Below are positions 10,551-47,427 of a DNA stretch of 49,738 bases, one piece after another. The translations under genes were made by a program, and so were the position numbers. The notes beneath the pieces are model-generated. The model saw only the letters and a list, made by a program, of their open reading frames with translations. It made no database searches and was not told where the DNA came from. Positions within the stretch are counted from its first letter, which is position 1; each line of letters starts with the position of its first letter. This DNA is from Fidelibacterota bacterium (GTDB lineage: Bacteria > Fidelibacterota > Marinisomatia > Marinisomatales > UBA1611). The stretch covers positions 1-49,738 of the forward strand of contig JABHKE010000136.1 in NCBI GenBank assembly GCA_018692355.1. Direction: 5' to 3'.

Positions 10551-12308
10551 ATGTATAAAAGGTCTCACACTTGCGGACAACTTCGGAAAACCAATGTTGG
10601 TGTAACAATTAATCTAAACGGTTGGGTCAATTCAGTTCGGCTTCATGGACAGGTGGTTTTTGTAGATCTCCGTGATCGCTACGGCAAAACACAGATCGTT
10701 TTTGACGCTGATTCATTTTCCGGCGATTTTGAAGCAGTGAAAAAATTATCCATGGAAGATGTCTTGTCTATCCAGGGAGCGGTGAGAGACCGATCAGAAT
10801 CCGCCGTGAACCCGAATATGGTAACGGGTGAAATTGAAGTAGCTGTGACAGACTATATTATGCTAAATGAAGCAGCCCCGCTTCCATTCGTACTGTCAGA
10901 TAGAGATAATGCTGAGGAAAACCTTCGATTGAAATATCGCTATCTTGAACTCAGAATGGAAGAACTCCAGAAAAATATACTTATCCGCCATGAAACCTAC
11001 CAAGCCGTCCGTAGTTATTTATCAGGACTGGAATTTGTAGAAATTGAAACACCGGTTTTGATGAAATCCACACCGGAAGGCGCTCGGGATTATTTGGTCC
11101 CCAGTCGGATTCATCAAGGAAAATTTTATGCATTGCCCCAGTCCCCTCAGATCTATAAACAGATACTAATGATTGCCAACTATGACAGGTATTTCCAAAT
11201 AGTAAAATGTTTCCGGGATGAAGACCTTCGTGCTGACCGCCAGCCTGAATTCACCCAGATAGATATTGAAATGTCATTCATTGATGAGGAAGATATTTTT
11301 GTTCACATGGAAGGGTTGACTCGCCATGTATTTAAATCAATACGTGGTATTGATCTACCGGATCCTTTCCCAAGGCTAACTTATGCGGACGCCATGGAAA
11401 CTTATGGCTCTGACAAACCGGATCTTCGTTATGGGATGCAGCTCCAGGATGTGAAAGATTTCACCGATGCTTCTGATTTCAATGTATTCAAATCAGCTGA
11501 AAAAGTGAAAGGAATCATTATAAAAGGTGGTGCCAAATATTCCAGAAAAAATATTGATGAGTTAACAGATTTTGTCAAAAAATATAAGGCGAAAGGCTTG
11601 GCATGGATGAAATGGGAAAAGGGCACATTCATAGGCGGAATTTCCAAATTTTTCTCCGAAAATCTTCAGAAGGCCATGTTTGAAAAATTGAGTGGGAATG
11701 ATGGAGATATATTATTCATGATTGGTGATGATTCATCGATTGTTCTTAATGCATTAGGTCATCTTCGCGTGGAAATAGCGAAGCGTGAAGCCTTAACAAA
11801 CAAAGATGATTTTAAACCGGTTTGGGTTACAGAATTCCCTATGTTTGAATATGATAAAGAAGCTGATCGTTTTATTGCCATGCATCATCCGTTTACAGCA
11901 CCGAGAGAATCAGATATTGAAATGTTAGATTCGGATCCATCCAACACTTTGAGCCGTGGCTATGATTTAACCTTAAATGGATATGAGATTGCCGGTGGCT
12001 CCATTCGAATTCATTCACCAAAAGTTCAAGAAAAAGTATTCTCTTTATTAGGATTGAGCCGTGAAGAAGCGGTTGAAAAATTTGGATTCTTAGTGGAAGC
12101 CTTGACCTATGGTGCACCACCCCACGGTGGCATTGCTTTTGGGTTTGATCGGTTAGTTATGCTCTTAGCTGGAACTGAAAATATCCGTGATGTAATCGCT
12201 TTTCCCAAAACTACATCAGCGACATCTCTCATGGATGAAAGTCCAAACAATGTGAGCGCCAACCAGTTGGATGAGTTGGGGATTCAAATCAAAAAATCTA
12301 AAAAATAA
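10551..12308 (+). CDS. aspS: Aspartyl-tRNA synthetase, bacterial type with GAD domain
   Basis: 585 residues, the length of bacterial AspRS. Order: N-terminal OB-fold anticodon-binding domain (to about residue 110), class II core, inserted GAD domain (about 285-420), core end. Class II motif 2 is FRDEDLRADRQPEFTQID and motif 3 ends GIAFGFDRLVMLLAG. It charges tRNA with aspartate. In the OB fold, His32 (LHG) sits where discriminating enzymes have Leu (DLG in E. coli); His there is known from non-discriminating AspRS that also charge tRNA-Asn, which would require GatCAB. That inference rests on one residue. Confidence 0.97.
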   Translation: MYKRSHTCGQLRKTNVGVTINLNGWVNSVRLHGQVVFVDLRDRYGKTQIVFDADSFSGDFEAVKKLSMEDVLSIQGAVRDRSESAVNPNMVTGEIEVAVTDYIMLNEAAPLPFVLSDRDNAEENLRLKYRYLELRMEELQKNILIRHETYQAVRSYLSGLEFVEIETPVLMKSTPEGARDYLVPSRIHQGKFYALPQSPQIYKQILMIANYDRYFQIVKCFRDEDLRADRQPEFTQIDIEMSFIDEEDIFVHMEGLTRHVFKSIRGIDLPDPFPRLTYADAMETYGSDKPDLRYGMQLQDVKDFTDASDFNVFKSAEKVKGIIIKGGAKYSRKNIDELTDFVKKYKAKGLAWMKWEKGTFIGGISKFFSENLQKAMFEKLSGNDGDILFMIGDDSSIVLNALGHLRVEIAKREALTNKDDFKPVWVTEFPMFEYDKEADRFIAMHHPFTAPRESDIEMLDSDPSNTLSRGYDLTLNGYEIAGGSIRIHSPKVQEKVFSLLGLSREEAVEKFGFLVEALTYGAPPHGGIAFGFDRLVMLLAGTENIRDVIAFPKTTSATSLMDESPNNVSANQLDELGIQIKKSKK

Positions 12309-32126: not shown

Positions 32127-32209
32127 GCCGCGGTGGTGGAATTGGTAGACACGCCAGATTTAGGATCTGGTGCCCTTTGGGTGTGAAGGTTCGAGCCCTT
32201 TCCGCGGTA
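32127..32209 (+). tRNA. tRNA-Leu, anticodon UAG
   Basis: 83 nt. Acceptor stem GCCGCGG/CCGCGGT (G1-U72 wobble), anticodon stem CCAGA/TCTGG with loop TTTAGGA (anticodon TAG, reads CUN), long class II variable arm (TGCCCTTTGGGTGT), T-arm GAAGG-TTCGAGC-CCTTT, discriminator A. The 3' CCA is not encoded (the genome reads CAA), so CCA must be added afterwards. Confidence 0.96.
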
Positions 32210-32210
32210 C

Positions 32211-32269: not shown

Positions 32270-33109
32270 TTACCAGTCTTCGTCATCACCCCAATCATCT
32301 TCACCAGATTCTTCTTCAAGGTATTCTGCTTGTTCATCGAGCCAGGACTGGTATCCTCCATCATCATGAACGGTAAAGAAACCACGCATTCGGTAGTGGC
32401 CTAATCCACAAAGTTGGGCGCAGGCGATTTCCAAAGATTTTCCTTCTCGTTTGGACCCAATAGTTGTTTTTAGAAATTCGTCCGATGTCATGGTAGCTGT
32501 GAAATGAACCGGAATAACCATTCCCGGGATTGCGTCTTGTTTTACTCGAAGTTCTGTCAATGTAAAACTGTGAATCACATCTAAGGATGTAAGGTCAATT
32601 CGTATCTTTTTATCAACAGGTACATGCAATTGGTTCACCGTATAAAAATCATCTGATGCGTTATCGCTTGAACGATCTAAACCAACTGGGTTTTCCTGCT
32701 CATCCACAAGATCAGCTCGTGTATCACCAAATTTACCATCAGGTCCAGGGTAATGTACATTCCAGGCAAATTGTTGTGCTACAACACGAAGATGAATGGA
32801 TTCATCCGGTGTAGGAACATCAGTGACTCGTGCTGCCCAAATTGGAAATCCAAATCCAAAAAGGATCACAATTTCAATCACAGCCACAACTGCTTCAAGT
32901 AAAGATGACAAATGAGACTTGACACCTGTATAATCTGCTTTTGCATTTTTGGATGCACGGAATTTGACGAGACTGACTATAAAAAATAAACCCCAGCCTA
33001 CAAATAAAACGAGCATTAACCAGTGGACAATTGCATTAATTTCATCAATAGCAGCGCCCTGTACTGACATATTGATGGGTAAACCTAGTTTATGGAGAAT
33101 ATCAATCAA
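32270..33109 (-). CDS. coxB: Cytochrome c oxidase subunit II
   Basis: 279 residues, two N-terminal membrane helices (about 29-49 and 70-92) and a periplasmic CuA cupredoxin domain. CuA ligands: His180, Cys230, Cys234, His238 and Met241 in CAQLCGLGHYRM. Position 232, usually Glu in CSE(L/I)CG, is Gln. No cytochrome c domain is fused, so a separate donor is needed. Conserved aromatics VVAQQFAWNVHYPG precede the domain. The protein ends in an acidic/Trp tail (EDDWGDDEDW) that recurs at the end of the octaheme cytochrome c of the bc complex. It is the last gene of the oxidase operon and overlaps the small gene upstream by 8 bases. Confidence 0.95.
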   Translation of the reverse strand: MIDILHKLGLPINMSVQGAAIDEINAIVHWLMLVLFVGWGLFFIVSLVKFRASKNAKADYTGVKSHLSSLLEAVVAVIEIVILFGFGFPIWAARVTDVPTPDESIHLRVVAQQFAWNVHYPGPDGKFGDTRADLVDEQENPVGLDRSSDNASDDFYTVNQLHVPVDKKIRIDLTSLDVIHSFTLTELRVKQDAIPGMVIPVHFTATMTSDEFLKTTIGSKREGKSLEIACAQLCGLGHYRMRGFFTVHDDGGYQSWLDEQAEYLEEESGEDDWGDDEDW

Positions 33110-33353
33110 AAGAAGATCCTCTACTTTTATTCAATTGTTGAAAATTTTTGTTTTTTTTCCCGATCGAAATGATCGTGCTGATTACGCCACCCAACACTCC
33201 ACCTGTAACACCTAGCAATGTAATAATCGCCCAGTTCAATCCTTGAGATGCCGGTGCACTTGGGTCGCCAAAACAAGTCGCGCATGCTTGCGCTGTTTCC
33301 GGGATAAAGAACACCGTGAATGAAAGGAGAATAATGTGAAGAGTTCTTTTCAT
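33102..33353 (-). CDS. Small exported membrane protein with CxxC, oxidase operon
   Basis: 83 residues: signal peptide (MKRTLHIILLSFTVFFIPETAQA), then ACATCFGDPSAPASQGLN with a CxxC lacking a following His (so not heme c), one membrane helix (about 41-64) and a basic tail. I do not recognise the family. The Cys pair, next to coxB and overlapping it by 8 bases, could take part in copper handling or redox of the CuA site; this is inference. Confidence 0.7.
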   Translation of the reverse strand: MKRTLHIILLSFTVFFIPETAQACATCFGDPSAPASQGLNWAIITLLGVTGGVLGGVISTIISIGKKNKNFQQLNKSRGSSFD

Positions 33354-33356
33354 GTA

Positions 33357-33554
33357 TCAGATATGTTTGATTTTTTTAACCATTGAAAAGCCATATGCGA
33401 TGAGCCCCGTAGCTACCAAAAAAGATAGCCCTGCCAACAAATTGGAAATATATCCGGGATTGGATGGATTGGAGATTTCAAACATGCCATAGTACCCAGT
33501 GATTAGGATAGAAACGCCAATGAAAAAGAAGTGAAATTGTTTGAGTGAAATCAT
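33357..33554 (-). CDS. Small two-helix membrane protein, oxidase operon
   Basis: 65 residues with two membrane helices (about 7-25 and 38-58) and a basic C-terminus (MVKKIKHI). It overlaps coxD by 4 bases and is 3 bases before the CxxC protein. Family not recognised; a structural or assembly subunit of the oxidase is plausible from position alone. Confidence 0.65.
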   Translation of the reverse strand: MISLKQFHFFFIGVSILITGYYGMFEISNPSNPGYISNLLAGLSFLVATGLIAYGFSMVKKIKHI

Positions 33555-33856
33555 GATAGGCTTGCATGGTCAATGGTAGTAATCATTGGAATAAACATAC
33601 AAAAAAGGAAAAAGACAAATGTCAGGCATAAGATCCAAATAATTGTATGTTTTTCTGTGATAAGGTGCATGAAGTATCCTGCTACAAGGCTGGCTTTCAC
33701 TGTAGCGATAGTCAAGGCTAAAAAGATGGCCTCGGTCGTTGACACATCCATGTAAGAAGCAGCAACGGTTAAGAGTGTTAAGGCTCCTAGCGCACCAAAT
33801 ACGGTTAAATAAACCTTAATGTGCTCTTGGATATGCCCGTTATCATGATCGCTCAT
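33551..33856 (-). CDS. coxD: Cytochrome c oxidase subunit IV (prokaryotic CoxD family)
   Basis: 101 residues with three membrane helices; the second helix motif TIATVKASLVAGYFMHLITEK is the signature of prokaryotic oxidase subunit IV (IVxxKAxLVxxYFMHL). A small accessory subunit helping stability or assembly. Ten-base gap to coxC, four-base overlap with the next small gene. Confidence 0.92.
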   Translation of the reverse strand: MSDHDNGHIQEHIKVYLTVFGALGALTLLTVAASYMDVSTTEAIFLALTIATVKASLVAGYFMHLITEKHTIIWILCLTFVFFLFCMFIPMITTIDHASLS

Positions 33857-33865
33857 TATTGTCCC

Positions 33866-34465
33866 CTAAAGTAAGTAAAGAATTGGGAATAGAAAAATCC
33901 AGACAAGATCCACAAAGTGCCAGTAAAGTCCCGCAACTTCAATTCTGTTTGTAAATCGTTCAGGATCAGATTGCCACATCTTATTTCCAAATGGTAACCA
34001 GAAATAGCCCATAACAATCATACCACCGATTATGTGCAACATATGTAGACCAGTCAATGTAAAATAGATTCCCATGAATGTACTGGATGATGGGTAAATC
34101 CCATGGTGGAATTTTCCAGTATATTCAAAATATTTGACAACTAGGAATAAAAATGCGCACAGAAGGGTAAGTCCCATATACATCTTATATTTTTCAAAAT
34201 CTTTCATTTTCAAAGATGCCCAGGACATGATCACCGTTACACTTGACGAAATCAAAACTATGGTATTGAAAGTTGCCATGGGGATACTCAATTTTGAACC
34301 CCAGTATGCAAAATCGCCTACTGGCGCTGCCATTCTCAAAAAAACATATGCAGAGAATAGTCCGCCAAATAGCATTATTTCGGAAGCCAGAAAAACCCAG
34401 ATTCCTAATTTAGAATTATTTAAACCTGTATCAGGTCTTTCTTCAACTATGTATGGAATTTGCAC
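33866..34465 (-). CDS. coxC: Cytochrome c oxidase subunit III
   Basis: 199 residues with five membrane helices, the short bacterial form. Typical segments: GIWVFLASEIMLFGGLFSAYVFLR and LHMLHIIGGMIVMGYF, and the ending EVAGLYWHFVDLVWIFLFPILYLL. Subunit III stabilises the catalytic core and the proton-uptake path. Located 12 bases after coxA. Confidence 0.96.
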   Translation of the reverse strand: MQIPYIVEERPDTGLNNSKLGIWVFLASEIMLFGGLFSAYVFLRMAAPVGDFAYWGSKLSIPMATFNTIVLISSSVTVIMSWASLKMKDFEKYKMYMGLTLLCAFLFLVVKYFEYTGKFHHGIYPSSSTFMGIYFTLTGLHMLHIIGGMIVMGYFWLPFGNKMWQSDPERFTNRIEVAGLYWHFVDLVWIFLFPILYLL

Positions 34466-34477
34466 CGTCAGAGTCCT

Positions 34478-36187
34478 TTATTTTTCTGTTTGCGGTGAGA
34501 AATCTTTATCTGCACCGGGAACACTATACTCATAAGGTCCTCGATACACTTCAACATCGCCTTCAAAGTTCGCATGGGGAACGGGAGGAGAAGGCGCTGA
34601 CCATTCAACGGTCGTTGCACCCCATGGGTTTCGATCTACTTTTTCGCCATTGAACATGGAAACAAATACATTAATAATGAATGGAATCTGTGCTGCCGCA
34701 AGGCAGAAAGCGGAAATAGACATAAACTCATTCCATTGCAGCACATCCTGAGCATGAGCATAAAGTTGTCCACCATCATACAGACGGCGAGAGACACCAG
34801 CAAGCCCTTGAATAAACATGGGCATAAAAACACCATTCATAAAAATGAGTGATGGCCAAAAGTGAAGTTTTCCCAGAGCTTCACTCATTTTTCTCCCTGT
34901 GATTTTAGGGAACCAATAATAGATTCCTGCAAAGAGGGCGAAGATAGTGCCCGGTGCAACTACATAATGGAAGTGACCAATCACGTAATAGGTATCATGA
35001 AGATGAATATCCGATGCGCCTACACCCAGAGGGAGACCTGTTAAACCACCAATCCCAAACATGGGTAAGAATGCCAACGCAAATAACATGGGAGTTGTAA
35101 AACGGATAGATGCTCCCCATAGTGAAATGAAGAACGCAGTTAAGATTACCACCGATGGAATCGAAATAATCATGGTAGTTGTTTGGAAAAAAGCACTCAT
35201 AGCCTGCCCCATTCCTGTTAAAAACATATGATGTGCCCAAACAATAAAGGACATAAAACCAAGAAAAACGGATGCATAGACCAAGGATTTATACCCCCAG
35301 AGAGGTTTCCTTGTATTATTTGCAATCACGTCTCCAACAATTCCCATTGCGGGAAGAATTAAAACATAAACTTCAGGATGAGCGAGAAACCAGAATAAAT
35401 GCTGCCAAAGAAGTGGAGATCCCGAGCCATAAACATCAACGGTTGCACCACTGTAGACCAATCCGCTGGGTAAGAAAAAACTTGTATGAGCTACTCTATC
35501 CATCAATTGCAGAACTGCAGCCGCTTCAAGAGGTGGAAATGCAAGAACCAATAAAAAAGCAGTGACAAACTGTGCCCAGACAAAGAAAGGAAGTCTAAAC
35601 CAAGAAAGTCCAGGTGCCCTTAATTGAACAATGGTAACAATAATATTCATAGAACCTAAAAGGGAAGATGTAATTAAAAAGACCATCCCAATAAGCCATG
35701 TTGTTTGACCGGTTTCAAAGATCGAGAGTGGTGGATAAGAAGTCCACCCTGATCTTGCAGCTCCTTCCGGCATGAAAAAACTAGCCAGCATAATGACACC
35801 ACCAATAAAGTATGACCAGTAACTAGCAGCATTCAATTTAGGGAATGCCATATCTGGTGCGCCGATTTGCAAGGGAACAATATAGTTTCCAAATGCGCCA
35901 ACAGCCAGAGGTACCACACCTAGAAAGATCATTATTGTACCATGCATGGCACCTAACATATTATAAATCTCCGGCATTAAAATATCGGATTCACCTAGTA
36001 GCCAACCGACTATGGGGACTGATGTTTCCGGGTAGGCCAATTGCCATCTCATAACCATCATCAGGCAAAATCCAAAAAACAGGAACAATAGTGAAGTGAT
36101 CCCATATTGGAGCCCAATGACTTTATGGTCTACAGAAAAAATATATTTCTGTAAAAAATTCTCTTCGTGGTGAGAATCATTACTCAC
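34478..36187 (-). CDS. coxA: Cytochrome c oxidase subunit I (A-type heme-copper oxidase)
   Basis: 569 residues, 12 membrane helices. Heme a ligands His82 and His407, heme a3 His405, CuB ligands His270, His319 and His320, cross-linked Tyr274. The HPEVY motif supplies Glu272 and IGAPDMAFPKLN supplies Asp112 and the Asn of the D-channel, so this is an A1-type proton-pumping oxidase. It is the first gene of the operon, preceded by a 194-base gap with a long inverted repeat. ATG 36187 is followed by a His-rich N-terminus (SHHEEN). Confidence 0.98.
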   Translation of the reverse strand: MSNDSHHEENFLQKYIFSVDHKVIGLQYGITSLLFLFFGFCLMMVMRWQLAYPETSVPIVGWLLGESDILMPEIYNMLGAMHGTIMIFLGVVPLAVGAFGNYIVPLQIGAPDMAFPKLNAASYWSYFIGGVIMLASFFMPEGAARSGWTSYPPLSIFETGQTTWLIGMVFLITSSLLGSMNIIVTIVQLRAPGLSWFRLPFFVWAQFVTAFLLVLAFPPLEAAAVLQLMDRVAHTSFFLPSGLVYSGATVDVYGSGSPLLWQHLFWFLAHPEVYVLILPAMGIVGDVIANNTRKPLWGYKSLVYASVFLGFMSFIVWAHHMFLTGMGQAMSAFFQTTTMIISIPSVVILTAFFISLWGASIRFTTPMLFALAFLPMFGIGGLTGLPLGVGASDIHLHDTYYVIGHFHYVVAPGTIFALFAGIYYWFPKITGRKMSEALGKLHFWPSLIFMNGVFMPMFIQGLAGVSRRLYDGGQLYAHAQDVLQWNEFMSISAFCLAAAQIPFIINVFVSMFNGEKVDRNPWGATTVEWSAPSPPVPHANFEGDVEVYRGPYEYSVPGADKDFSPQTEK

Positions 36188-36381: not shown

Positions 36382-36708
36382 TTAATCTATTTCTAGGTTG
36401 TAAATATTTTCAAAAATATCCGTTTCCAGCATTCGGATTGCGTCCCAAGTCATCTTGGTACATACCCGGGCGCAAACTTGACAGCCGGTACATTCATTAA
36501 AACGAATCTGAACTGGTGGGATAATAATTTCATATTTATCTTTTGCTACTGGTTCTATACAATCAACGGGGCAAAACGGCACACATGCTTGACAACCGGT
36601 GCAATTATCTTCATCAACGATTGCCATGAGCCTCGGGCGTTTTGTTTTTTCTCGAGGAATGTCTGGTAAATCTGGAATTCCTTTGAAATGATTATATGTG
36701 TTTGCCAT
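36382..36708 (-). CDS. Ferredoxin with two 4Fe-4S clusters
   Basis: 108 residues from ATG 36708 (an in-frame TTG nine bases earlier is less likely). Cluster motifs: CTGCQACVPFCPVDC and CTGCQVCARVCTKMTW; the second lacks the usual Pro after the fourth Cys. The N-terminal 28 residues are basic and Pro-rich. A low-potential electron carrier; its partner is unknown. It follows the 52-residue membrane gene by 62 bases, probably in one transcript with the 158-residue membrane protein. Confidence 0.88.
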   Translation of the reverse strand: MANTYNHFKGIPDLPDIPREKTKRPRLMAIVDEDNCTGCQACVPFCPVDCIEPVAKDKYEIIIPPVQIRFNECTGCQVCARVCTKMTWDAIRMLETDIFENIYNLEID

Positions 36709-36770
36709 GTTTTTCAAAAAGTATTAGATAAACAATTTACTAATAAATATTAAATCCAAAGAAATGAAAT

Positions 36771-36929
36771 TTACTGTAGGATATATTTTTCTATTACCCA
36801 CCCTGCCACAAAACAAACAATGCCAGCCAGGAGCAATTTTGGGTCCATCAATTGAGGAAATTTAATAATAAACCCAATCCCGATCATTGTCATACCCAGA
36901 AGTTCCAATCCTTTGGCACCGTAATACAT
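36771..36929 (-). CDS. Microprotein with two membrane helices
   Basis: 52 residues, beginning MYYGAKGLELLGMTMIGIGF and ending KYILQ, with two hydrophobic segments (about 9-22 and 32-46). Its ATG shares one base with the stop of the 158-residue membrane protein (TAATG), which supports translation. Family not recognised. Confidence 0.65.
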   Translation of the reverse strand: MYYGAKGLELLGMTMIGIGFIIKFPQLMDPKLLLAGIVCFVAGWVIEKYILQ

Positions 36930-37405
36930 TATTCAGTATCCGGTTTTAGTTTTGAAATAATGGCGATCTGTTCCTTAAAGGCATAATTCTTGATTATTAG
37001 TGACCAAATATGATGTCCGTAAGCGATGAGGAATAAAGGTCCATGTAACCAGGAAGATGGCATGTGGTTATCCACGGCACCGCCATGAATAAATACAGCA
37101 CCCACTAAAGTAAGCGTTAACATGAGATGTGGAAACAGTTTCATTTTTAATTTTCGTTCCCGTATCCAGAGTTCATTTTCTCCCAGCTTCTTTAAAATGG
37201 CCTCCTTGATTCCTTTACCAGTAGATATAAAAAAATACATTACTACTGTTTCTGTTATGGCAAATATCAAGATCATAAACACTGCAAAGCGAGGGTGGTT
37301 TGCACCTATCAAATCCATTTGAAAATATCCACTAATTCCTGTCAAGGTTAAGTTTATAAAATTAACAAACATGAGCAAGTAACAAGTGATCATAAATATC
37401 CACAT
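36929..37405 (-). CDS. Four-helix membrane protein of unknown function
   Basis: 158 residues with four membrane helices (about 3-24, 40-62, 88-108, 120-140). Membrane-embedded or interface histidines (LFPHLMLTLTLVGAVFIHG, NHMPSSWLHG, AYGHHIWSL) are arranged so that heme binding is conceivable, but I do not recognise the family. It is the first gene of a minus-strand cluster with the 52-residue protein and the ferredoxin, which suggests a membrane redox module. A sequence GGAGA lies 12 bases before the start. Confidence 0.6.
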   Translation of the reverse strand: MWIFMITCYLLMFVNFINLTLTGISGYFQMDLIGANHPRFAVFMILIFAITETVVMYFFISTGKGIKEAILKKLGENELWIRERKLKMKLFPHLMLTLTLVGAVFIHGGAVDNHMPSSWLHGPLFLIAYGHHIWSLIIKNYAFKEQIAIISKLKPDTE

Positions 37406-37560: not shown

Positions 37561-38271
37561 ATGAAGCTTAAGAAATTAATCGTCACCGGAATTGCTATGA
37601 CTTTTGCAATCGCATTTGTGGACGCTGGTACCTTAAAAGGCCACGTGAAATATGATGGAAAAGCTCCGAAATCAAAACGGTTAAAAATGGATGCAGATCC
37701 AGTTTGTGGTGCATCTCATTCCGGCCCGGTTTACAGTGAGAGTTTTAAAATGGCAGCTGATGGCTCCATGGCAGAAGCAATTGTTTATTTAAAGAATGTT
37801 TCTTATTCCGGTGGTTCACCTGCAGATCCTGTCATTTTAGATCAAAATGGCTGTATTTATAATCCCCATGTATTAGGGCTGGTTGCAGGGCAAGCACTGC
37901 TGATTAAAAACAGTGATGCCACATTGCATAATATCCACTCCAGACCCAATGTGAATAAGGAATTCAATTTTGCAATGCCGAAAGTAGTGAAAGAAAAAAA
38001 ATCAACTTTTGCGGAATCTGAACCAGAACCATTTTACATTAAATGTGATGTTCATCCCTGGATGAAAGCTTGGGTCTTGGTTTCAGATCACCCATACTTT
38101 GCAGTTACAGATTCGAATGGGAATTTCTCCATTGATGGCATTCCAGCTGGATCTTATGAAGTGGTTTGCTGGCAGGAAAAATTCAAAAAGAAACCGATGA
38201 CTGCAACAGTCACAATTGGTGATGGTGAAACCAATCAGGATTTCACATTCACACGACCAAAGAAAAAGTAA
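37561..38271 (+). CDS. Secreted cupredoxin-like copper protein with C-terminal carboxypeptidase-regulatory-like domain
   Basis: 236 residues. Signal peptide (about 1-22). The cupredoxin part carries likely copper ligands His123 (TLHNIHS) and Cys162, His165, Met168 in KCDVHPWM, the C-x2-H-x2-M pattern of type 1 copper sites. The C-terminal part from about residue 176 (YFAVTDSNGNFSIDGIPAGSYEVVCW) is a carboxypeptidase regulatory-like beta-sandwich. AAGGA lies 9 bases upstream of ATG. Placed between oxidase and bc operons, it may shuttle electrons to CoxB or serve in copper handling. Similar proteins are often labelled methylamine utilisation protein, but no mau genes are present. Confidence 0.8.
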   Translation: MKLKKLIVTGIAMTFAIAFVDAGTLKGHVKYDGKAPKSKRLKMDADPVCGASHSGPVYSESFKMAADGSMAEAIVYLKNVSYSGGSPADPVILDQNGCIYNPHVLGLVAGQALLIKNSDATLHNIHSRPNVNKEFNFAMPKVVKEKKSTFAESEPEPFYIKCDVHPWMKAWVLVSDHPYFAVTDSNGNFSIDGIPAGSYEVVCWQEKFKKKPMTATVTIGDGETNQDFTFTRPKKK

Positions 38272-38338: not shown

Positions 38339-39178
38339 ATGGTAAAATTCATTTTATTTCTAGGTATCATTATTTGTTTCAGTTGCAGTTCTCCGGAGAA
38401 AATATATTCGGTGAAAGGAACCATTTACGTACTCAAACCGGATTCCATGATGATCGTCATTGCACATGATACAATTCCTGATCTTATGTATCCCATGGTC
38501 ATGCCCTTTGATTTGAAAGATCTGAAAGAGATCGAAGGATTGTCTGTTGGAGACAGTGTTCATTTTGAATTTGTTTGGGGCGATACATCCACGTGGGCTC
38601 GGAAGTTTAAAGTTGTGGGCCAAGGGAAATTGCCGGAGGATGAGGATGATGATTTCTTCGAAGATGAAAACTATTCAGAACGAGGTATAGGCGAGATTAT
38701 TGATAATGTAGCCTTCTTGGATTTGGACAGTTCATTGGTACGCCTATCTGATTCCGATGGAAAATATCGGTTCATTTCTTTCATATTTACGCGGTGTCCC
38801 ATGCCGAATATGTGTCCTGCGGTAGTGATTAAGAATGATTATTTAGCGAAGGCATTTAAAGAAAGGAATGACATAGAATTCGTCATGGTCAGTTTTGATT
38901 ATAAACACGACACACCCTCGGTATTGAAAGACTTTTATGGTTCAACCATAGAAGGATTTGATAACTGGAAAGTGTGGTCAAGCACGGGTCATATTGAAGA
39001 TGTATATCGTCTAGCAAAACAAAGTGGTTGCAACTTTTGGGGAATTGAAGAAAACAAAATTGGCCACACACTTCGGTCTATTTTAATAGGTCCTAATCGT
39101 GAGATATTAGGCAACTGGCCCGGCGACAATTGGAAAGCAGGAAACGTGAAAACTGCAATTGAATTGTTAATGAAATAA
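38339..39178 (+). CDS. Lipoprotein fusing a CusF-like copper-binding domain to an SCO1/SenC domain
   Basis: 279 residues. Lipobox cysteine 16 (ICFSCSS). The N-terminal domain (about 22-95) resembles CusF, with His43 and Met50, Met53, Met55 in AHDTIPDLMYPMVMPFDL. An acidic linker (EDEDDDFFEDEN, about 100-111) leads to a thioredoxin-fold SCO domain with copper ligands Cys153 and Cys159 in TRCPMPNMCP and His243 in KIGHTL. SCO proteins deliver copper to CuA of CoxB. The fusion could hold spare copper for transfer. A second, shorter SCO is encoded at 48502-49089. Confidence 0.88.
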   Translation: MVKFILFLGIIICFSCSSPEKIYSVKGTIYVLKPDSMMIVIAHDTIPDLMYPMVMPFDLKDLKEIEGLSVGDSVHFEFVWGDTSTWARKFKVVGQGKLPEDEDDDFFEDENYSERGIGEIIDNVAFLDLDSSLVRLSDSDGKYRFISFIFTRCPMPNMCPAVVIKNDYLAKAFKERNDIEFVMVSFDYKHDTPSVLKDFYGSTIEGFDNWKVWSSTGHIEDVYRLAKQSGCNFWGIEENKIGHTLRSILIGPNREILGNWPGDNWKAGNVKTAIELLMK

Positions 39179-39309: not shown

Positions 39310-42285
39310 CTACCAGTCCTCGTCGTCACCCCAATCATCTTCGTCTTCATCCCCGCTAAAATCATAACCATTTTCATTAAAATAATCTTGGATGGTTTTA
39401 TCGATGTTCGTTTTCCCTTTAATGCTCCAAACATAGTCCCGGAGTCCGTCCAGCATAGCTTCTGTATCACCATTCATTTTGACAAGTTCTTTCCCCCAGT
39501 CATTTTTAGCACCATCTATTGTTAATAGATCTTCTGTTGGGAGAAATGGCGCCGGCATTTTAGTTCCCGGCATAATGGTTTGTGGTTCACGCAACCATTC
39601 TTTCACCCAACCCGGGTTTAGCCTTTCCTTGGTCAGGGCTAGGTTCGGTGCCCACGTGGAAGCATCTTGTTTCGGAAATGTTGTACCATAAAAATGACAG
39701 TTATTACAGGCACCCAATTCATGGATCATTTCACCACCTTTGAATTCGATGGAATGTTCATTAATGGTTAATTCATCCCGATAGGAGATCTTTTCATTAT
39801 CCAAATGCTGGAAATACTTGATGATGGCATTCCACTGTTCATCTGTGATCTGGTGGAAACTGGGCATCCGCACTTCGAGGTTCGGGCGAATTATAGATGG
39901 GTTATTAAAGAAGCTTAATAGCCAATCTGGATTTGTTTTAGCGCCCTGTGTATTTAGATTCGGCGGAGCGTATTCTGCAGCACCGATATGGTCTACCAAT
40001 TGACCACCAAAATCATCGATCAAGTGGCAACCTTGGCAATTGAATTGTTTGACCAATCGTGCTCCATTCTGTGCCATTTCATCCACACGATTATGAGCTT
40101 TGATTCCTTCATCCACTTTATTGCCATTAAACCCCAATATGGCTGTAGTAATGGCTTCAATTTCTGTTTTATTGAAATCAAAGTTTGGCATCTTTAATTT
40201 ATCCAATGTTGGACTGACTTTATCACGGTCAAAAATTCTAGGATTACCCAATTTTGCTTCAAACCATGCAAAATTGGTATGGTCAATATCATGATGGAGT
40301 CCAAAATCCAATTTTATTGTCGGTTTAGAACCTTCTTCTGTTAAATCTGTCCCTATAGGTTTGGCTTTTTCAAATCCATCAATTGTATGGCAGCCGAAAC
40401 AGCCATAATGCGTAATACTTTTTTTAGCCACATAATCAAGTTTTTGATTCAGATTCATTCCGGCTAATTTTTTTGTAGCATAGGATTCAGGCATTTGTTT
40501 GGACAAGTGGGTAAATGCGACTTTATCCAGGGACATTTCATCTAGATTAACATCAGGTAAATTTTCAAAATCTTCATTTCGGAATGACATGATATAAGCT
40601 GTAATATTTTTTGCATCTTCATCATTCACTCGAAGATTGGGCATCCGGGTTTCCGGATTATATGCTAATGGATCCTTGATCCAATTATAAACCCATTCAG
40701 CAGATGTTTTAGAGCCAATACCAATCAGATTAGGGCCTTGGCGTTTTGTTAATTCTTTAAGAGAAGTTTCAGTTTCAACCGGGTCGGGTTCAATAACATG
40801 GCAGCCCAAGCAACCAATAGATTCAAATAAATGTTGCCCATTTTCAGCATCGCCCATGAATCGATAATCTGATGTGGACTTTTTACCACCATTTTCTGAT
40901 ACAAGATAGGAACTCATGGCATAGATCTCAGCGTCATTCCAGGCCTGCATTTCAGGCGAGATTTGGTTGTCCTGTCCAAATGTAGATGGCATCTTGGTGT
41001 TGTGTCGGAACTTCTTTGGATCTCGGATCCATTTGGCTATCCATTTCCTAGAAACTTTTTTATCCAGGTTTTTCAGATTTGGTCCTACTTTAGATAATTG
41101 TGGGTAATCCTGAGCCAGATGGCAACCATTACATCCCGACTTATCCACTAATGACAGGCCAAGATTCAATTTATCAGCTCCTTTCAGATCCAAATTATTA
41201 TTGTGACACTTAAAACAGGAAGCTTCTGTATAATGAGTTGGTAACATCGGTTGAAGCCAATGGTGCATCACTTCCCAATCATATTCTTCCTGCCAACGTG
41301 CTTTTTCGTCATCATTGCTTGGTGTGTGTGTGGATGAAGTAAATGATGTTCCCCGTCCGCGGCCAGCATGGCAACTGGTGCACCCAAAGGTATCCATGGG
41401 GTGCGAAGAAGCAGATGTAATGTATAGATCTAAATTAGGATGAGTAGTAAAGGGCTGGGGTGCATCAGCAAAGTTGGGATTTTCGATTCCCAAATGGCAA
41501 CTGGTACAACGATCCACTTTGGGAACCGCTGCAAAGTTCACATCATATTTCACATCGCGAACCACAATTTGGTTTACCTTATAATAAGGATCTAAAAAGT
41601 CGATGATAGGTAGGTCTCGAACAACATCCCCGACCTTATTGACGAAGGTCATCCGCTCCCGGTCGATCTTACTAAGTTTATTATCAACAATCGTCACGTC
41701 TTTCAAAACAATATTGAGTTCTTCTCTCTTCAGTTTTACATTTGCCTTCAGGTCTTTGATAGCTTTTTCAGTATCGTCGATCTCTATCTCGGATGCTTCC
41801 TTGATGAGTTGGTACTTATGAAGTAATTCCAATGCCGCCGCATAATCATTTTTATTAGAAGGCCCATGATGGTCTCCATCATCCTGGTGGGCGTTTTCAG
41901 CTTCAACAAGATATTTGAGTCCATCCACTTCAGCCTTTTGGCCCTGGTAGATCATATTCTCATTGTAGTAACGGCCTTCAAGTGTTTTTAAAATCGCACC
42001 AAGATCAACCAATGTTTCATTTTGAATATCTAAATCAGATTGAGCCCTAGCCAAATCTTTTTCAAAAGAGATGCGTTCAGCTGAAACAGCTTCTAATTCC
42101 CGTTTCAGATTCTTTTCAGTGATTCCAATTTCCATTTTCCGGAATTCACGCTGATAAACTTTGAATTCATCATCATTATCATCAACAAAAGTCCAAGCCA
42201 TACTGATCAAAAACAGGATGGATGATATGGCGAACCATTTATTTAATTTCTGAATATCCCAATAGCGTTCGTCGTTATTAAACAT
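39310..42285 (-). CDS. Membrane-anchored octaheme cytochrome c of the bc-type complex, with coiled coil and acidic tail
   Basis: 991 residues. One membrane helix (about 16-34), then a charged coiled coil (about 45-215), then eight CxxCH heme motifs at residues 260, 302, 357, 385, 492, 629, 750 and 860. The last five are each followed by a Met-Pro ligand motif (KMPSTF 431, RMPNL 547, KMPNF 698, RMPSF 806, KMPAPF 909), so the tail is five tandem mono-heme class I domains; the first three hemes probably have His ligands. It ends with EDDWGDDEDW, the same tail as CoxB. As last gene of an operon with Rieske, cytochrome b and subunit IV, it replaces cytochrome c1/f and may act as an electron wire to the oxidase. 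Confidence 0.9.
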   Translation of the reverse strand: MFNNDERYWDIQKLNKWFAISSILFLISMAWTFVDDNDDEFKVYQREFRKMEIGITEKNLKRELEAVSAERISFEKDLARAQSDLDIQNETLVDLGAILKTLEGRYYNENMIYQGQKAEVDGLKYLVEAENAHQDDGDHHGPSNKNDYAAALELLHKYQLIKEASEIEIDDTEKAIKDLKANVKLKREELNIVLKDVTIVDNKLSKIDRERMTFVNKVGDVVRDLPIIDFLDPYYKVNQIVVRDVKYDVNFAAVPKVDRCTSCHLGIENPNFADAPQPFTTHPNLDLYITSASSHPMDTFGCTSCHAGRGRGTSFTSSTHTPSNDDEKARWQEEYDWEVMHHWLQPMLPTHYTEASCFKCHNNNLDLKGADKLNLGLSLVDKSGCNGCHLAQDYPQLSKVGPNLKNLDKKVSRKWIAKWIRDPKKFRHNTKMPSTFGQDNQISPEMQAWNDAEIYAMSSYLVSENGGKKSTSDYRFMGDAENGQHLFESIGCLGCHVIEPDPVETETSLKELTKRQGPNLIGIGSKTSAEWVYNWIKDPLAYNPETRMPNLRVNDEDAKNITAYIMSFRNEDFENLPDVNLDEMSLDKVAFTHLSKQMPESYATKKLAGMNLNQKLDYVAKKSITHYGCFGCHTIDGFEKAKPIGTDLTEEGSKPTIKLDFGLHHDIDHTNFAWFEAKLGNPRIFDRDKVSPTLDKLKMPNFDFNKTEIEAITTAILGFNGNKVDEGIKAHNRVDEMAQNGARLVKQFNCQGCHLIDDFGGQLVDHIGAAEYAPPNLNTQGAKTNPDWLLSFFNNPSIIRPNLEVRMPSFHQITDEQWNAIIKYFQHLDNEKISYRDELTINEHSIEFKGGEMIHELGACNNCHFYGTTFPKQDASTWAPNLALTKERLNPGWVKEWLREPQTIMPGTKMPAPFLPTEDLLTIDGAKNDWGKELVKMNGDTEAMLDGLRDYVWSIKGKTNIDKTIQDYFNENGYDFSGDEDEDDWGDDEDW

Positions 42286-42293
42286 GCATAAAC

Positions 42294-43412
42294 CTAAATA
42301 TTAAAAAACCATTCTGGAATTGCGATAATGTATTTCAGGTTGAAGAACCACCGGAGATACATCTTGATGGGCAATGAAAACATGGATAGTCCAAAAAGCA
42401 TTAATGTTGTATATCGGATTGGACCTATTTTTTCAAATAGATCCTTTAGCCATGTTTTTGCTAATAAAATAGGGAACACGAACATGTAAGCAAACACCAC
42501 CAGAAATCCCATAAATTCCCTTAACATGATATTTGTAGGTAATCCTGTGCTGAGCATTTTTACCCATAAATACTCAGAAAGATTCACATTGTTCAATGGA
42601 ACTACTTTATGGGGATCCCAATATTCAAAGGGACCGAAGAAATTCCAATTTGGTCCACGGAAGAAGGTTCCAATTACGATTAGGAAAAGCCACAAAATGA
42701 GCCAGCCATACATAAAAATAAAAATGCCGATCCTCCGTTCCTTAAAGGAATAATACCCGTCCCCTTTGGGATTCGTATCGATGTAAGGAATAGCCATCAT
42801 TCCGAAAATGATGAACATGGGGAAAACAATTCCAGCCAACCACGGATCGAAATACACTAACATTTCTTGGAGTCCAAGAAAATACCAGGGTGCTTTGGAT
42901 GGATTTGGTGTTGATGCCGGGTTCGCTGGCTCTTCCAATGGTGCAGCAACCAAGATTGACCAGACTATCAAAAATACCATAAATAAAATTAAAGAAATGA
43001 ATTCAATATAAACCAAATCCGGCCATACCAGAACTTTATCATCCGGATCATTGTATTCTTCTGGCTTCAAGCCTTCTGCTAACCTATCATCATTGATGTA
43101 CGCTTTCTTCATTCCCAGCCAAATGAAGAAAAACATGGAATAAACCATTAGTACGATTGGAAAGTTATCCGGCTTTGTAAGGGTAATATTGAAGTTTGGA
43201 TCGAAATAACCAACTATAAAGAAAAAAGTTATGAATCCCATTCCAGCCCAAAGCCCGGGTTTTGTCCATAGTCTCCATATTCCCAATTTACGATTGAGTT
43301 TATCAAACCAATCTGTTGGTGGAAAAATGAGTGGTGTTAAAAGGGTTAAAAGGGTAAAACTGACAGTGGGAGCTGAAAGTGTGTCAATTACAGATTTAAA
43401 TGTTTCAATCAT
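42294..43412 (-). CDS. Cytochrome b C-terminal half (subunit IV-like), enlarged
   Basis: 372 residues, much larger than b6f subunit IV (about 160). The core (about 130-215) reads EPANPASTPNPSKAPWYFLGLQEML; the first part is the EPADPxATP motif of subunit IV. The quinol-site PEWY motif is APWY here (174-177), with Pro where the catalytic Glu normally sits. About 130 residues with two to three extra membrane helices precede the core, and three more helices follow. It lies 19 bases after the cytochrome b gene and 8 before the octaheme cytochrome. Confidence 0.88.
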   Translation of the reverse strand: MIETFKSVIDTLSAPTVSFTLLTLLTPLIFPPTDWFDKLNRKLGIWRLWTKPGLWAGMGFITFFFIVGYFDPNFNITLTKPDNFPIVLMVYSMFFFIWLGMKKAYINDDRLAEGLKPEEYNDPDDKVLVWPDLVYIEFISLILFMVFLIVWSILVAAPLEEPANPASTPNPSKAPWYFLGLQEMLVYFDPWLAGIVFPMFIIFGMMAIPYIDTNPKGDGYYSFKERRIGIFIFMYGWLILWLFLIVIGTFFRGPNWNFFGPFEYWDPHKVVPLNNVNLSEYLWVKMLSTGLPTNIMLREFMGFLVVFAYMFVFPILLAKTWLKDLFEKIGPIRYTTLMLFGLSMFSLPIKMYLRWFFNLKYIIAIPEWFFNI

Positions 43413-43431
43413 AAGAATCTCAAATCAGTGT

Positions 43432-44226
43432 TTATAGGGGGCCGGAGATTCCGCCATCCTTTCGGATGCGCCAGAAATGTACGGCCAGGAATATCATCAT
43501 AATAAAAGGTACGGCAATACAGTGAAGCACGTAAAACCGAAGGAGTGTAGCTTCACCCACGAATCTGCCACCCAATAATGCAAAGCGCACGTCTGAACCC
43601 ATATGGACCAAATTAATATCTCCAATTGCAAGCAAAGAAGCACCTGGGCCTTCATGACCAATAAAGGGATGTGCCCTTGCCATATTTGTACCTACGGTGA
43701 CTGCCCAAATTGCCAATTGATCCCAAGGAAGAAGGTAGCCGGTGAAAGATAAAAACATAGTCATGGTCATGAGAAGTACTCCGACACCCCAATTAAATTC
43801 ACGTGGTGGTTTGTAAGAACCGGTCATGAAAACGCGAAGCATGTGTAACCAAACAGTTAAGACCATGGCATGGGCACCCCAGCGATGAAGTTCCCGCATC
43901 ATGCCCAAGGGTACTTGTTCTGTCAGATCTATGATATCTGTATAGGCATATTCCACCGTAGGCCTGTAATAGAACATGAGCAGAATTCCTGTAATTGTGA
44001 GGACCACGAACAGGAAGAATGAAAGTCCACCCATACACCATGTATAGCCAACCTTAACAGCATGTTTTGGTAATCGAGCAGGATGGAGGTGTAGAAAAAC
44101 ACTTCCAAGGATTGCATGCATCCGCTGGCGCCGAGTATGGGGTACACCAGATCGAATGATGGATTTCCAAACCTGGGATTCACCCATCCGTTCTAAAAAT
44201 GATTTTTGTTTATTGTCTTTTGCCAT
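43432..44226 (-). CDS. Cytochrome b6-like subunit of a quinol-oxidising bc complex
   Basis: 264 residues with four membrane helices, binding hemes bL and bH. Heme ligands are His114 and His128 ([15 protein letters not shown]) and His235 and His250; the 15-residue spacing of the second pair and the final [11 protein letters not shown] match b6 rather than bc1-type cytochrome b. Cys64 in [11 protein letters not shown] aligns with the Cys of b6 that covalently holds heme c-n (c-i). The N-terminal 50 residues are basic and cytoplasmic. The Rieske gene lies 18 bases upstream. Confidence 0.93.
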
Positions 44227-44244
44227 TGTACCTAAATTGATTAA

Positions 44245-44799
44245 TTAAACTACCAAGAATGATTCAGAATTCTCCCACTCGCCTTTTTCCCATTTAAAAC
44301 TTTTTGTTTTATCTACGAGAATTTGTCCGTCATTTGAAAGAGATACTTTATATCTTTCCAATGGACGGGGTGCTGGGCCTTCGAAATTAATTCCGGTCAT
44401 CCGGAAACCGCTTCCGTGACACGGGCATTTAAATTTTCCTTCTGTTCGCAGCCAATTTGGTGTACATCCTAAATGGGTACAAACTGTGGAGAGAGCAAAG
44501 ATAGATTCTTCGTCTCTAACCACCCAAATATTAAATGATTTTTTATATCGGATATCCACTGTATTTGTTGCGTAATCATTCGGAAACCCAATTTTTAATG
44601 TTTGAGGGGGTTCGAATAATACATTGGGGAAAAGAAACCGTATCATCACTGTAAAAAACCCACCAGTTGCGCCGGCAAAAGCTATCCACCCTAGGGACAA
44701 CCATTTAAAAAATCCACGCCGACCCATTTCTTTTCCATTTTCAGAATTCTGGGTGGATGTACCTACCGATGCGGTTGGGGTAATTTTTTCTTCACTCAT
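44245..44799 (-). CDS. Rieske iron-sulfur protein of the bc complex
   Basis: 184 residues. A Tat-type signal/anchor: GRRGFFKWL (Arg27-Arg28) before a membrane helix (about 35-55). The 2Fe-2S ligands are Cys107, His109, Cys125 and His128, with the disulfide pair Cys112 and Cys127, in CTHLGC and CPCHGSGF. It accepts the first electron from quinol. It begins 2 bases after the HEAT-repeat gene. Confidence 0.95.
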   Translation of the reverse strand: MSEEKITPTASVGTSTQNSENGKEMGRRGFFKWLSLGWIAFAGATGGFFTVMIRFLFPNVLFEPPQTLKIGFPNDYATNTVDIRYKKSFNIWVVRDEESIFALSTVCTHLGCTPNWLRTEGKFKCPCHGSGFRMTGINFEGPAPRPLERYKVSLSNDGQILVDKTKSFKWEKGEWENSESFLVV

Positions 44800-44801
44800 A
44801 A

Positions 44802-45680
44802 TTATATAACTTTGTTGTACGCAGATTGTAATGTTTTCATGGCAGCATCTCGAATCCGAAGATTCTCATCAGTTTTAGCTAACGAAACCAATTTTGTTTT
44901 GAATTGATCCTGTTTCAATAGAGACGAGACTTCAATCGCCACGAGAATCACTTGATTTTTTTCTGCTTCATCCACTTGAGGAAAAGCATTTAAATATTGT
45001 CTATCCATAAGGCTTTCAATGATGAATGCACCGGATGGGTCCCCCATCTTGGCTAAAGCAACGGCAGCATCCCATTGAATATTTGGCTCTTCATCCTCTA
45101 ATAATTTTTTCAACAATGGGATGGATTCTGGATTGCCTATCAATCCCATAGAAATTGTGGCACCGAGTCTCTCATCAGGAAAATCAGAATTTTCAATAAT
45201 CTCTTTTAATTTATTGGATGCATTTGTTGTACCTATCAAACCAACAGCCTGAATTGCAGCTCGCCGCGATTCACGATTTTCATCATTTAATCCATCAACC
45301 AATATTTCGGAATAAAAATTATCCCTGGTAACGCCCATAGCCAAAGCTAAATATGCCCTTACAAGCGGATCATCATGAATAGAATGATTATAAATGGAAA
45401 CCATTTGGTTTTTAAATGAAAGATCTGTGGGAATTTTATCCGGGTTGTTAAACACTTTTGATAACTCAAATGCAGATTGCCAGCGTTTGGAAGCAGAGCC
45501 GATCTTTACTTGGTTTAAAAGGGCTGAAGCATCATTTGTTTCAAAGGTAATGAAACGAAACAATAGAAAGAAAACCGCACCAAAAATAGCGATCATAAAG
45601 GGGATCAGGAAAAAAGAATAAAAAAGAGTATAGATCCTGGTTGATTCTTTTTTAGATAATTGTGTTGCGTTTTCGTTCAT
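44802..45680 (-). CDS. Membrane-anchored HEAT-repeat protein of the bc operon
   Basis: 292 residues: cytoplasmic N-terminus (to about 16), one membrane helix (about 17-42), then HEAT/PBS-lyase-like helical repeats (RRAAIQAVGLIGTTNASNKL; ERLGATISMGLIGNPESIPL; IQWDAAVALAKMGDPSGAFI; RIRDAAMKTL). No enzymatic motif. HEAT-repeat proteins often scaffold or regulate; its place directly before the Rieske gene suggests an assembly or structural subunit of this complex. Confidence 0.82.
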   Translation of the reverse strand: MNENATQLSKKESTRIYTLFYSFFLIPFMIAIFGAVFFLLFRFITFETNDASALLNQVKIGSASKRWQSAFELSKVFNNPDKIPTDLSFKNQMVSIYNHSIHDDPLVRAYLALAMGVTRDNFYSEILVDGLNDENRESRRAAIQAVGLIGTTNASNKLKEIIENSDFPDERLGATISMGLIGNPESIPLLKKLLEDEEPNIQWDAAVALAKMGDPSGAFIIESLMDRQYLNAFPQVDEAEKNQVILVAIEVSSLLKQDQFKTKLVSLAKTDENLRIRDAAMKTLQSAYNKVI

Positions 45681-46021: not shown

Positions 46022-46129
46022 TTAGAGCACCCATGTTACTAATGTGACATAAACCAAAAGAAGCAATGTACACACAATCATAGAAATGACCTGCGTTTTA
46101 GTTAAAGGTTCTTTTTGTGTTTCAGACAT
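46022..46129 (-). CDS. Microprotein: 35-residue single membrane helix, bc operon
   Basis: 35 residues, cytoplasmic MSETQKEPLTKTQ then one helix (about 14-35) ending TWVL. Its ATG shares one base with the stop of the SRPBCC-repeat gene (TAATG). Small single-helix subunits are common in bc and oxidase complexes (PetL/G/N, CcoQ), which is the likely role here. Confidence 0.65.
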   Translation of the reverse strand: MSETQKEPLTKTQVISMIVCTLLLLVYVTLVTWVL

Positions 46130-47427
46130 TATTTTGCTGCTCGTTTTGCTTTGACAATGGCAGATTTGATTTTGCCTCTTAATGCTCTGTTATCGAGGGC
46201 ATTGATCTCATCCATATCCCCATCTAATCCTTTTGCAATCAGGCGATCAATTAATTGATCGCCTGATTCACCAGCATCTGCATTACTATTAGATGTTTCG
46301 GGAATTTCCGGCATGGGTGGACGTTCAAAAGTCCCCCGTTTAATTTTAACAATCATGGATTTGGCTTTTCCGCGAATCACTTTATCCTTGTGAGCATTCA
46401 CAGTGTCCATATCTCCATCTAATCCTTTATTCACCAAATATGCCACAAGATTTTCTGATGATAATGCATCGATTCCACCTCCGGACGCAGGTGGTGCACT
46501 ACCGGCAGGTTTATCTGGTTTTGGCGGTGTTACACCGCTACGCTTGGCTTTAACAATGCCTGCTTTGGCCATGCCGCGGATGGGTTTTTCAGGGATGGCA
46601 TTCACAAAATCCATATTGTTTTCCATGCCCATATTAATTGCGTAGTCGATATAATCTTGTCGCGATGCAAAACCGCCAAATTGGTTTGCGCCATCAGCAC
46701 CGCTATCCGTTTGCTCATCTTCTTTGGTGAAATCTACTTTAGGTACAATTATATCTAATTTTTGCAGGATTCGTGATTTGGCCAGCCAATTGAATTGTGT
46801 TAAAAATGAAAAAAGGCCTTTGGACGTCCGCCTGCATGTTACCCAAACACCCAACTCTGTTTCTTCAATGCTAAATTGGACATATTCACTAACAAGTGGG
46901 GATGTCCTGAAAGTGAAACCAAATTCTTTTTCTTTTTCAACAGTAATGATTCGGCATTTAAAATAGGGAGCGATGGTTCGAGGTCGAATTTTAAAGAATG
47001 ATCCTGGTTCAAGATTAAGATGGGTGAAAGAATATTTGTGGACATAGCGATCAATATCAAGGACAGGAAGTGATCGCTGAATTCCATAGAACCAAACATT
47101 ATACATATTTATAGATGTGATCATTTGCCACATGATGTCTTTGGTGGTGGAAAAATGGTGTTTGACAACACTTTCGCCGGTAAATGGGTTCCAGGCTGTC
47201 CAACTTTCGCCAACACCATTTTTGGGAACAGGCGGAGCCTGAAGTTTTGCTTCGGGTTGTTCAATACCTTCAAACTCAAGATCTTTTGATGAGTAATGCC
47301 GGATATTTCCATCTGAAAATTCTATTTCATACTTGGTGGGGTAGAAATAGATCTTCTTCAGAATACCGGTTTCACCGCTATTGCGAACTGTACAGGCTGT
47401 ACCCAGATCGATCCTATTTAGAATCAT
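46129..47427 (-). CDS. SRPBCC-domain protein with three novel C-terminal repeats, first gene of bc operon
   Basis: 432 residues, no signal peptide. Residues 1-55 form a small beta domain (SH3/KOW-like); about 75-230 read as an SRPBCC/START-like ligand-binding domain (VVKHHFSTTKDIMWQMITSI...FGFTFRTSPL...GVWVTCRRTS). After a linker come three copies of a module of about 38 residues at 259-296, 327-364 and 392-429, with consensus KGLDGDMDxxNAxxxKxIRGKxKSxIVKxKR, separated by Pro/Gly-rich spacers. SRPBCC proteins include COQ10, which binds quinone, so quinone handling for the complex is a speculative role. Function otherwise unknown. Confidence 0.75.
   Translation of the reverse strand: MILNRIDLGTACTVRNSGETGILKKIYFYPTKYEIEFSDGNIRHYSSKDLEFEGIEQPEAKLQAPPVPKNGVGESWTAWNPFTGESVVKHHFSTTKDIMWQMITSINMYNVWFYGIQRSLPVLDIDRYVHKYSFTHLNLEPGSFFKIRPRTIAPYFKCRIITVEKEKEFGFTFRTSPLVSEYVQFSIEETELGVWVTCRRTSKGLFSFLTQFNWLAKSRILQKLDIIVPKVDFTKEDEQTDSGADGANQFGGFASRQDYIDYAINMGMENNMDFVNAIPEKPIRGMAKAGIVKAKRSGVTPPKPDKPAGSAPPASGGGIDALSSENLVAYLVNKGLDGDMDTVNAHKDKVIRGKAKSMIVKIKRGTFERPPMPEIPETSNSNADAGESGDQLIDRLIAKGLDGDMDEINALDNRALRGKIKSAIVKAKRAAK

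Follow-up and report, generated by a model that had tools for sequence, protein, structure and literature searches.

In yeast, the acidic disordered segment of Qcr6, together with Qcr9, contacts cytochrome c, and it was proposed to guide this carrier from the bc1 complex to the oxidase (PMC11413003). Qcr6 is a separate small subunit that is found in complex III only, and its acidic loop is N-terminal. A different solution is found in the actinobacterial bcc-aa3 supercomplexes, in which electrons are transferred directly through the dihaem domain of the bc complex (PMC8361435), i.e., that of the cytochrome cc QcrC. In SAR406, a group of uncultured bacteria that are widespread in the ocean, the electron route from the bc complex to the oxidase appears undescribed in the open papers searched, and a search of the open literature yielded no paper on respiratory docking in SAR406 or on Trp-capped CoxB tails.

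The window, i.e., the whole stretch of 49,738 nucleotides that was analysed, belongs to a Neomarinimicrobiota (SAR406) MAG of 2.05 Mb that is 86% complete. It contains a bc cluster with the order HEAT-Rieske-cytbN-cytbC-cytochrome c8, which is the same in relatives, and a cox cluster. Between the two, on the opposite strand, lie the genes for a cupredoxin and a CusF-SCO protein. The order of these genes is also conserved in relatives. The relevant features are the following:

32270–33109, minus strand: CoxB, subunit II of an A-type haem-copper oxidase, with no haem c fused to it; its gene is the last of the cox cluster
32273–32302, minus strand: acidic-Trp tail EDDWGDDEDW of CoxB, found by pattern search and conserved phylum-wide
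33102–36187, minus strand: rest of the cox cluster, i.e., a small protein, a small membrane protein, CoxD, CoxC and CoxA (open reading frames, order kept in relatives)
37561–38271, plus strand: periplasmic cupredoxin of the amicyanin/plastocyanin type with a small beta domain behind it; candidate for the shared electron shuttle
38254–38268, plus strand: RPKKK, the basic C-terminal tail of the cupredoxin, located after the last strand (residues 228–231)
38339–39178, plus strand: CusF-SCO copper chaperone (PF11604, PF02630), adjoining the cupredoxin; acidic, pI 4.9
39310–42285, minus strand: octaheme cytochrome c (cytochrome c8) of the bc complex, with eight CxxCH motifs (PF00034/PF13442); last gene of the bc cluster
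39313–39342, minus strand: acidic-Trp tail EDDWGDDEDW of cytochrome c8, found by pattern search and conserved phylum-wide
42294–45680, minus strand: rest of the bc cluster, i.e., the C-terminal and N-terminal parts of cytochrome b, the Rieske protein and a HEAT-repeat protein (Pfam)

The periplasmic COX2 domain is present in CoxB (PF00116, E 3e-9, 37.1 bits against a cut-off of 22), and the set of CuA ligands is complete (H...C-x3-C-x3-H-x2-M) and invariant (H180, C230, C234, H238 and M241). The score against the NCBI equivalog TIGR02866 (E 5e-31, 107.9 bits) lies under the cut-off of 147.7, which marks the protein as a divergent member. As in the actinobacterial supercomplexes, an A-type oxidase is faced here by a bc complex with a multihaem cytochrome c subunit. 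The SAR406 system differs in the number of haems (eight, against two), in its separate cupredoxin gene and in the acidic tails shared by both partners.

An earlier note on this DNA had pointed out that CoxB and the octaheme cytochrome c, otherwise unrelated, end in the same ten residues, that no other protein of the window does so, and that the shared ending might be a tag for a common partner. The observations themselves hold. EDDWGDDEDW followed by a stop forms the C-terminus of both minus-strand genes, and the two proteins, with COX2 and cytochrome c Pfam domains, respectively, have no domain in common. In the entire genome, the pattern [DE][DE][DE]W-stop is matched twice, by these two genes only, and the reversed pattern, used as a control, is not matched at all; for this genome, a tail scattered over many unrelated proteins can therefore be rejected. 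The codons for the tail differ at synonymous sites between the two genes, the stop codons are TAA and TAG, and the upstream sequences are unrelated. The shared tail therefore does not stem from duplication of DNA or from gene conversion; the likeness is one at the protein level, without recent duplication. In a structural model of CoxB, the tail is predicted to be unstructured (pLDDT < 50 for residues 269–279), in a model that is weak overall (mean pLDDT 60). Alignment with solved CoxB structures reaches only to about residue 266, and none of them covers the tail.

The C-termini were surveyed, by reading them from fetched regions, in 245 genomes of the phylum, of which 114 contain cytochrome c8 and 153 contain CoxB, distant paralogues included. 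A tail was scored when at least five of the last twelve residues were acidic and an aromatic residue was near the end. By this rule, 88 of 97 readable C-termini of cytochrome c8 and 83 of 84 of CoxB carry the tail; the one CoxB that fails it ends in EGDWW. The last residue is W in 75/97 and 79/84 cases, respectively. Both tails are present in 70 of the 75 genomes in which both C-termini could be read, and the five exceptions all belong to family f20. In the family of the genome studied (33 genomes), every readable C-terminus of both proteins has the tail, with a variable number of repeats, e.g., DDWGDDEDDDWGDDEDDDW; the final letters are Y in one cytochrome and WK in another. Identity over ten residues between the two proteins was found in only one of the 75 genomes, i.e., the genome studied, so the exact match, to which the earlier note had given weight, is incidental, whilst the type of tail, kept throughout the phylum, is a real feature. 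Rather than a set word, it is the composition of the last ten residues (D 0.44, E 0.24, W 0.175 and G 0.07) that is conserved, along with the Trp at the very end.

The tail is kept by orthologues in relatives near and far and is not scattered over unrelated cytoplasmic proteins, so that the idea of a tag for a common partner withstands the checks that the earlier note had set for it. It is even found on CoxB proteins that have changed considerably. In families f10, f11 and f14, CoxB has ~60 extra residues past the CuA domain and still ends in DDDDWGEEW or similar sequences, and CoxB of genus g47 in family f16, only 34% identical, ends in VDDEEWGDDDW. These observations bear on the possibility that the tails are generic acidic ends of low complexity that have no specific partner and serve, for example, solubility or surface charge. 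Acidic ends are common in proteins, and here both composition and repeat number vary and the exact word is not kept. Yet, a generic end would hardly be confined to two proteins of the genome, capped so regularly by W and rebuilt at the new C-termini of extended CoxB proteins, and this possibility appears very remote.

If there is a common partner, the basic cupredoxin is, among the three options of the earlier note, the one favored by the data. Its type 1 copper ligands (H123, C162, H165 and M168) are invariant in 17/17 aligned sequences. Its model (pLDDT 90.6) aligns in Foldseek with plastocyanin and amicyanin, and the match with plastocyanin over residues 90–175 (Z 12.3, 1.8 Å, 84 residues) predicts a cupredoxin fold. 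By sequence, the similarity to amicyanin is weak (E 0.02), and the score against the amicyanin equivalog TIGR02657 (24.5 bits) is under the curated cut-off of 110.2. The protein resembles amicyanin and plastocyanin in fold, copper ligand set and, presumably, a role as soluble electron carrier. It differs from them in two additions, a small second beta domain that follows the copper domain and a short tail of lysines.

In the families with tailed proteins, the cupredoxin orthologues end in RPKKK, KPSKKK, RPPKK, KPVKKAKK and the like. The cupredoxins encoded at the operons have a mean charge of +4.0 over the last seven residues, compared with +1.7 for 20 lower-scoring homologues, a set that consists of paralogues, f25 proteins and a few low-scoring orthologues, including three true f16 orthologues. 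In all 63 genomes in which both acidic tails are present and the cupredoxin could be read, the charge of the last seven residues is at least +2. Furthermore, the gene lies between the two operons in nearly all syntenic relatives.

The most probable reading, to which we give about even odds (roughly 0.5), is that the acidic-Trp tails are disordered docking tails that capture this basic cupredoxin as a shared shuttle. The donor, i.e., the octaheme cytochrome c, and the acceptor, i.e., the CuA subunit of the oxidase, would each carry a flexible acidic-aromatic arm, and both arms would catch one mobile protein, the amicyanin-type cupredoxin whose gene lies between the operons. Capture would come about by pairing of the acidic tails with the basic C-terminal tail and the surface of the cupredoxin, with a contribution of the Trp residues, and electrons would pass from the bc complex via the cupredoxin to the oxidase. 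In this view, the label is common to donor and acceptor because they have one client in common. Such tails would most likely work like Qcr6, by analogy and without common descent; neither membership of the Qcr6 family nor a sequence relation is claimed. As with Qcr6, a segment rich in Asp and Glu would face a basic mobile carrier; disorder is modelled here for the CoxB tail only, in the weak model. In contrast to the acidic loop of Qcr6, the SAR406 tails are C-terminal, capped by Trp and located on the catalytic donor and acceptor themselves, and the carrier is likely a cupredoxin instead of cytochrome c.

Several observations count for the cupredoxin shuttle, including the retention of the tails, also on extended or only 34%-identical CoxB proteins, the basic cupredoxin ends in 63/63 genomes, the fold and copper ligands of the cupredoxin, and the lack of a fused haem c in CoxB. 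Others count against it. The whole cupredoxin of the genome studied is only mildly basic (net +5 including the signal peptide), and some orthologues are neutral. Outside the phylum, where homologues on plasmids were compared, rhizobial cupredoxins of about 30% identity also end in KK or KKK; thus, the basic end is not exclusive, and it may, judging from these sequences, predate the acidic tails or be independent of them. Quantitative co-variation of the tail charges of CoxB and cytochrome c8 was looked for and rejected (rho 0.05), and the correlation between the charges of cytochrome and cupredoxin is weak (rho 0.34) and confounded by kinship. In addition, the octaheme wire might reach CuA directly.

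Two families depart from the common pattern. In f25, cytochrome c8 has no tail, and the nearest CoxB homologues, which are divergent and possibly belong to a different oxidase, end in WPES or WPEL. The cupredoxins of this family end in KFSPKS, KFSPA or FSS, and three of four of these ends are neutral. In f20, cytochrome c8 has no C-terminal extension, and the cupredoxin ends are mixed, with charges from +1 to +5. When the cytochrome c8 tree is rooted on f25, f20 is nested inside the tailed lineages, with strong support for the deeper nodes; on this phylogeny, loss of the cytochrome tail in f20 is the simplest account. Three f20 genomes encode, away from the bc and cox clusters, an unrelated lipoprotein without any Pfam match above the cut-off that ends in DDDDDWGDEDW, GDDGWEDEDW or NDDWGDDW:

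L262, 2325–2918, minus strand: tailed lipoprotein of f20
L263, 2166–2789, plus strand: tailed lipoprotein of f20
L264, 2330–2953, plus strand: tailed lipoprotein of f20

The lack of tails together with mostly neutral cupredoxins in f25, and the loss of the cytochrome tail together with the tailed lipoprotein in f20, were counted for the shuttle. Most genomes share ancestry, which leaves few independent events behind the co-occurrence, mainly those in f25 and f20. Apart from the f20 lipoprotein, the other fetched in-frame matches to the pattern in the phylum end frames of 35 residues or fewer.

A tail on a third, unrelated protein would also fit a shared assembly, export or quality-control factor that reads the acidic-Trp C-terminus during the maturation of respiratory proteins. 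The location of the tail at the very C-terminus, with its terminal Trp, would suit such a factor, and SCO-type chaperones are encoded nearby. On the other hand, CoxB and the cytochrome need different cofactor machineries, for CuA and haem c, respectively, and the genome contains no further tailed protein. The CusF-SCO protein is itself acidic, and its pI of 4.9 rules it out as a basic partner. An assembly factor, which was among the possible partners named in the earlier note, is therefore less favored than the cupredoxin, and we regard it as unlikely.

Another partner suggested there was a docking site that joins the two complexes. The tails might hold a fixed bc-oxidase supercomplex together via a common scaffold, e.g., the HEAT protein, or via divalent cations, with direct transfer from the cytochrome to CuA, for which the actinobacterial supercomplexes provide a precedent. 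The HEAT-repeat protein (44802–45680, minus strand), which has an N-terminal membrane segment and is conserved across the class, is encoded at the head of the bc cluster. It is, however, a weak candidate for the receptor of the tails, as it is not basic (pI 5.2) and is retained in f20 despite the loss of the cytochrome tail. Moreover, two acidic tails would repel each other. A supercomplex is thus also less favored, and we consider it rather doubtful.

Finally, the tails could dock a shared carrier that is a small class I cytochrome c, in which case the cupredoxin would serve something else. Such cytochromes, searched for with PF00034, are present in several relatives as open reading frames of 127–143 residues (G156, G166, G127 and G016) and could be the carrier there, which was counted against the cupredoxin shuttle. 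None was found in the genome studied, where the only PF00034 match besides the octaheme cytochrome is a secreted protein of 217 residues with a sorting-type C-terminus. In G023 and G025, which are 92–93% complete, all matches lie within cytochrome c8, and the same holds for G096 and G177 among the matches listed. That the cupredoxin gene lies between the operons in almost every syntenic relative also argues against a small cytochrome as the shared carrier, which seems quite improbable. With few such carriers in some genomes and small ones elsewhere, the cupredoxin is the best candidate, not the sole one phylum-wide. Its basic C-terminal tail, its gene position, the co-occurrence with the acidic tails and this scarcity of alternative carriers in some genomes are what favor it.

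The tails point to a specific candidate carrier for the electron route between bc complex and oxidase in SAR406. They also suggest, more generally, that the two proteins served by a single mobile carrier, its donor and its acceptor, may each come by a common docking label on their own; the tail could then help to predict from genomes which proteins are partners of the carrier. More tentatively, the acidic-Trp tail could be one half of a code of complementary tails, a portable label that a single cupredoxin reads with its lysine tail and that marks every partner of this protein across the phylum. The carriers of the label would then possibly include, besides the octaheme cytochrome and CoxB, the CoxB of a second oxidase and the f20 lipoprotein.

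The CoxB of the second oxidase in the genome studied (L271:2033–2887, contig C140) has the sequence DDWDDWGDEDEE in an internal position, followed by a conserved terminus, WGWAWKEIK. In some genomes, including this one, DDWDDWGDDEE is found just ahead of this terminus. A further oxidase set with a cupredoxin of its own is present in G142 (L436:7019–7765 and 10759–11568) and in G192 (L363:4442–5260 and 746–1564). Here, CoxB ends in DDEEVW or ADEEVW and the cupredoxin in VFKR or TFSR, which is a weaker version of the complementary pattern.

Other genes of the window are located near or between the two clusters. A two-cluster ferredoxin (36382–36717, minus strand) and a small membrane protein that matches no Pfam family (36929–37405, minus strand) are encoded between them; in the two f20 genomes read, no match to either was seen close to the bc and cox clusters. 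Just downstream of the end of coxB, before the neighboring gene for a secreted protein, lies a tRNA-Leu gene (32127–32210, plus strand). The bc cluster is adjoined, also in relatives, by a gene for a 432-residue protein (46129–47427, minus strand) without Pfam or NCBIfam match, which contains three repeats of a GxDGDMDxxNAxxxKxxRGKxKxxIVKxKR-like unit.
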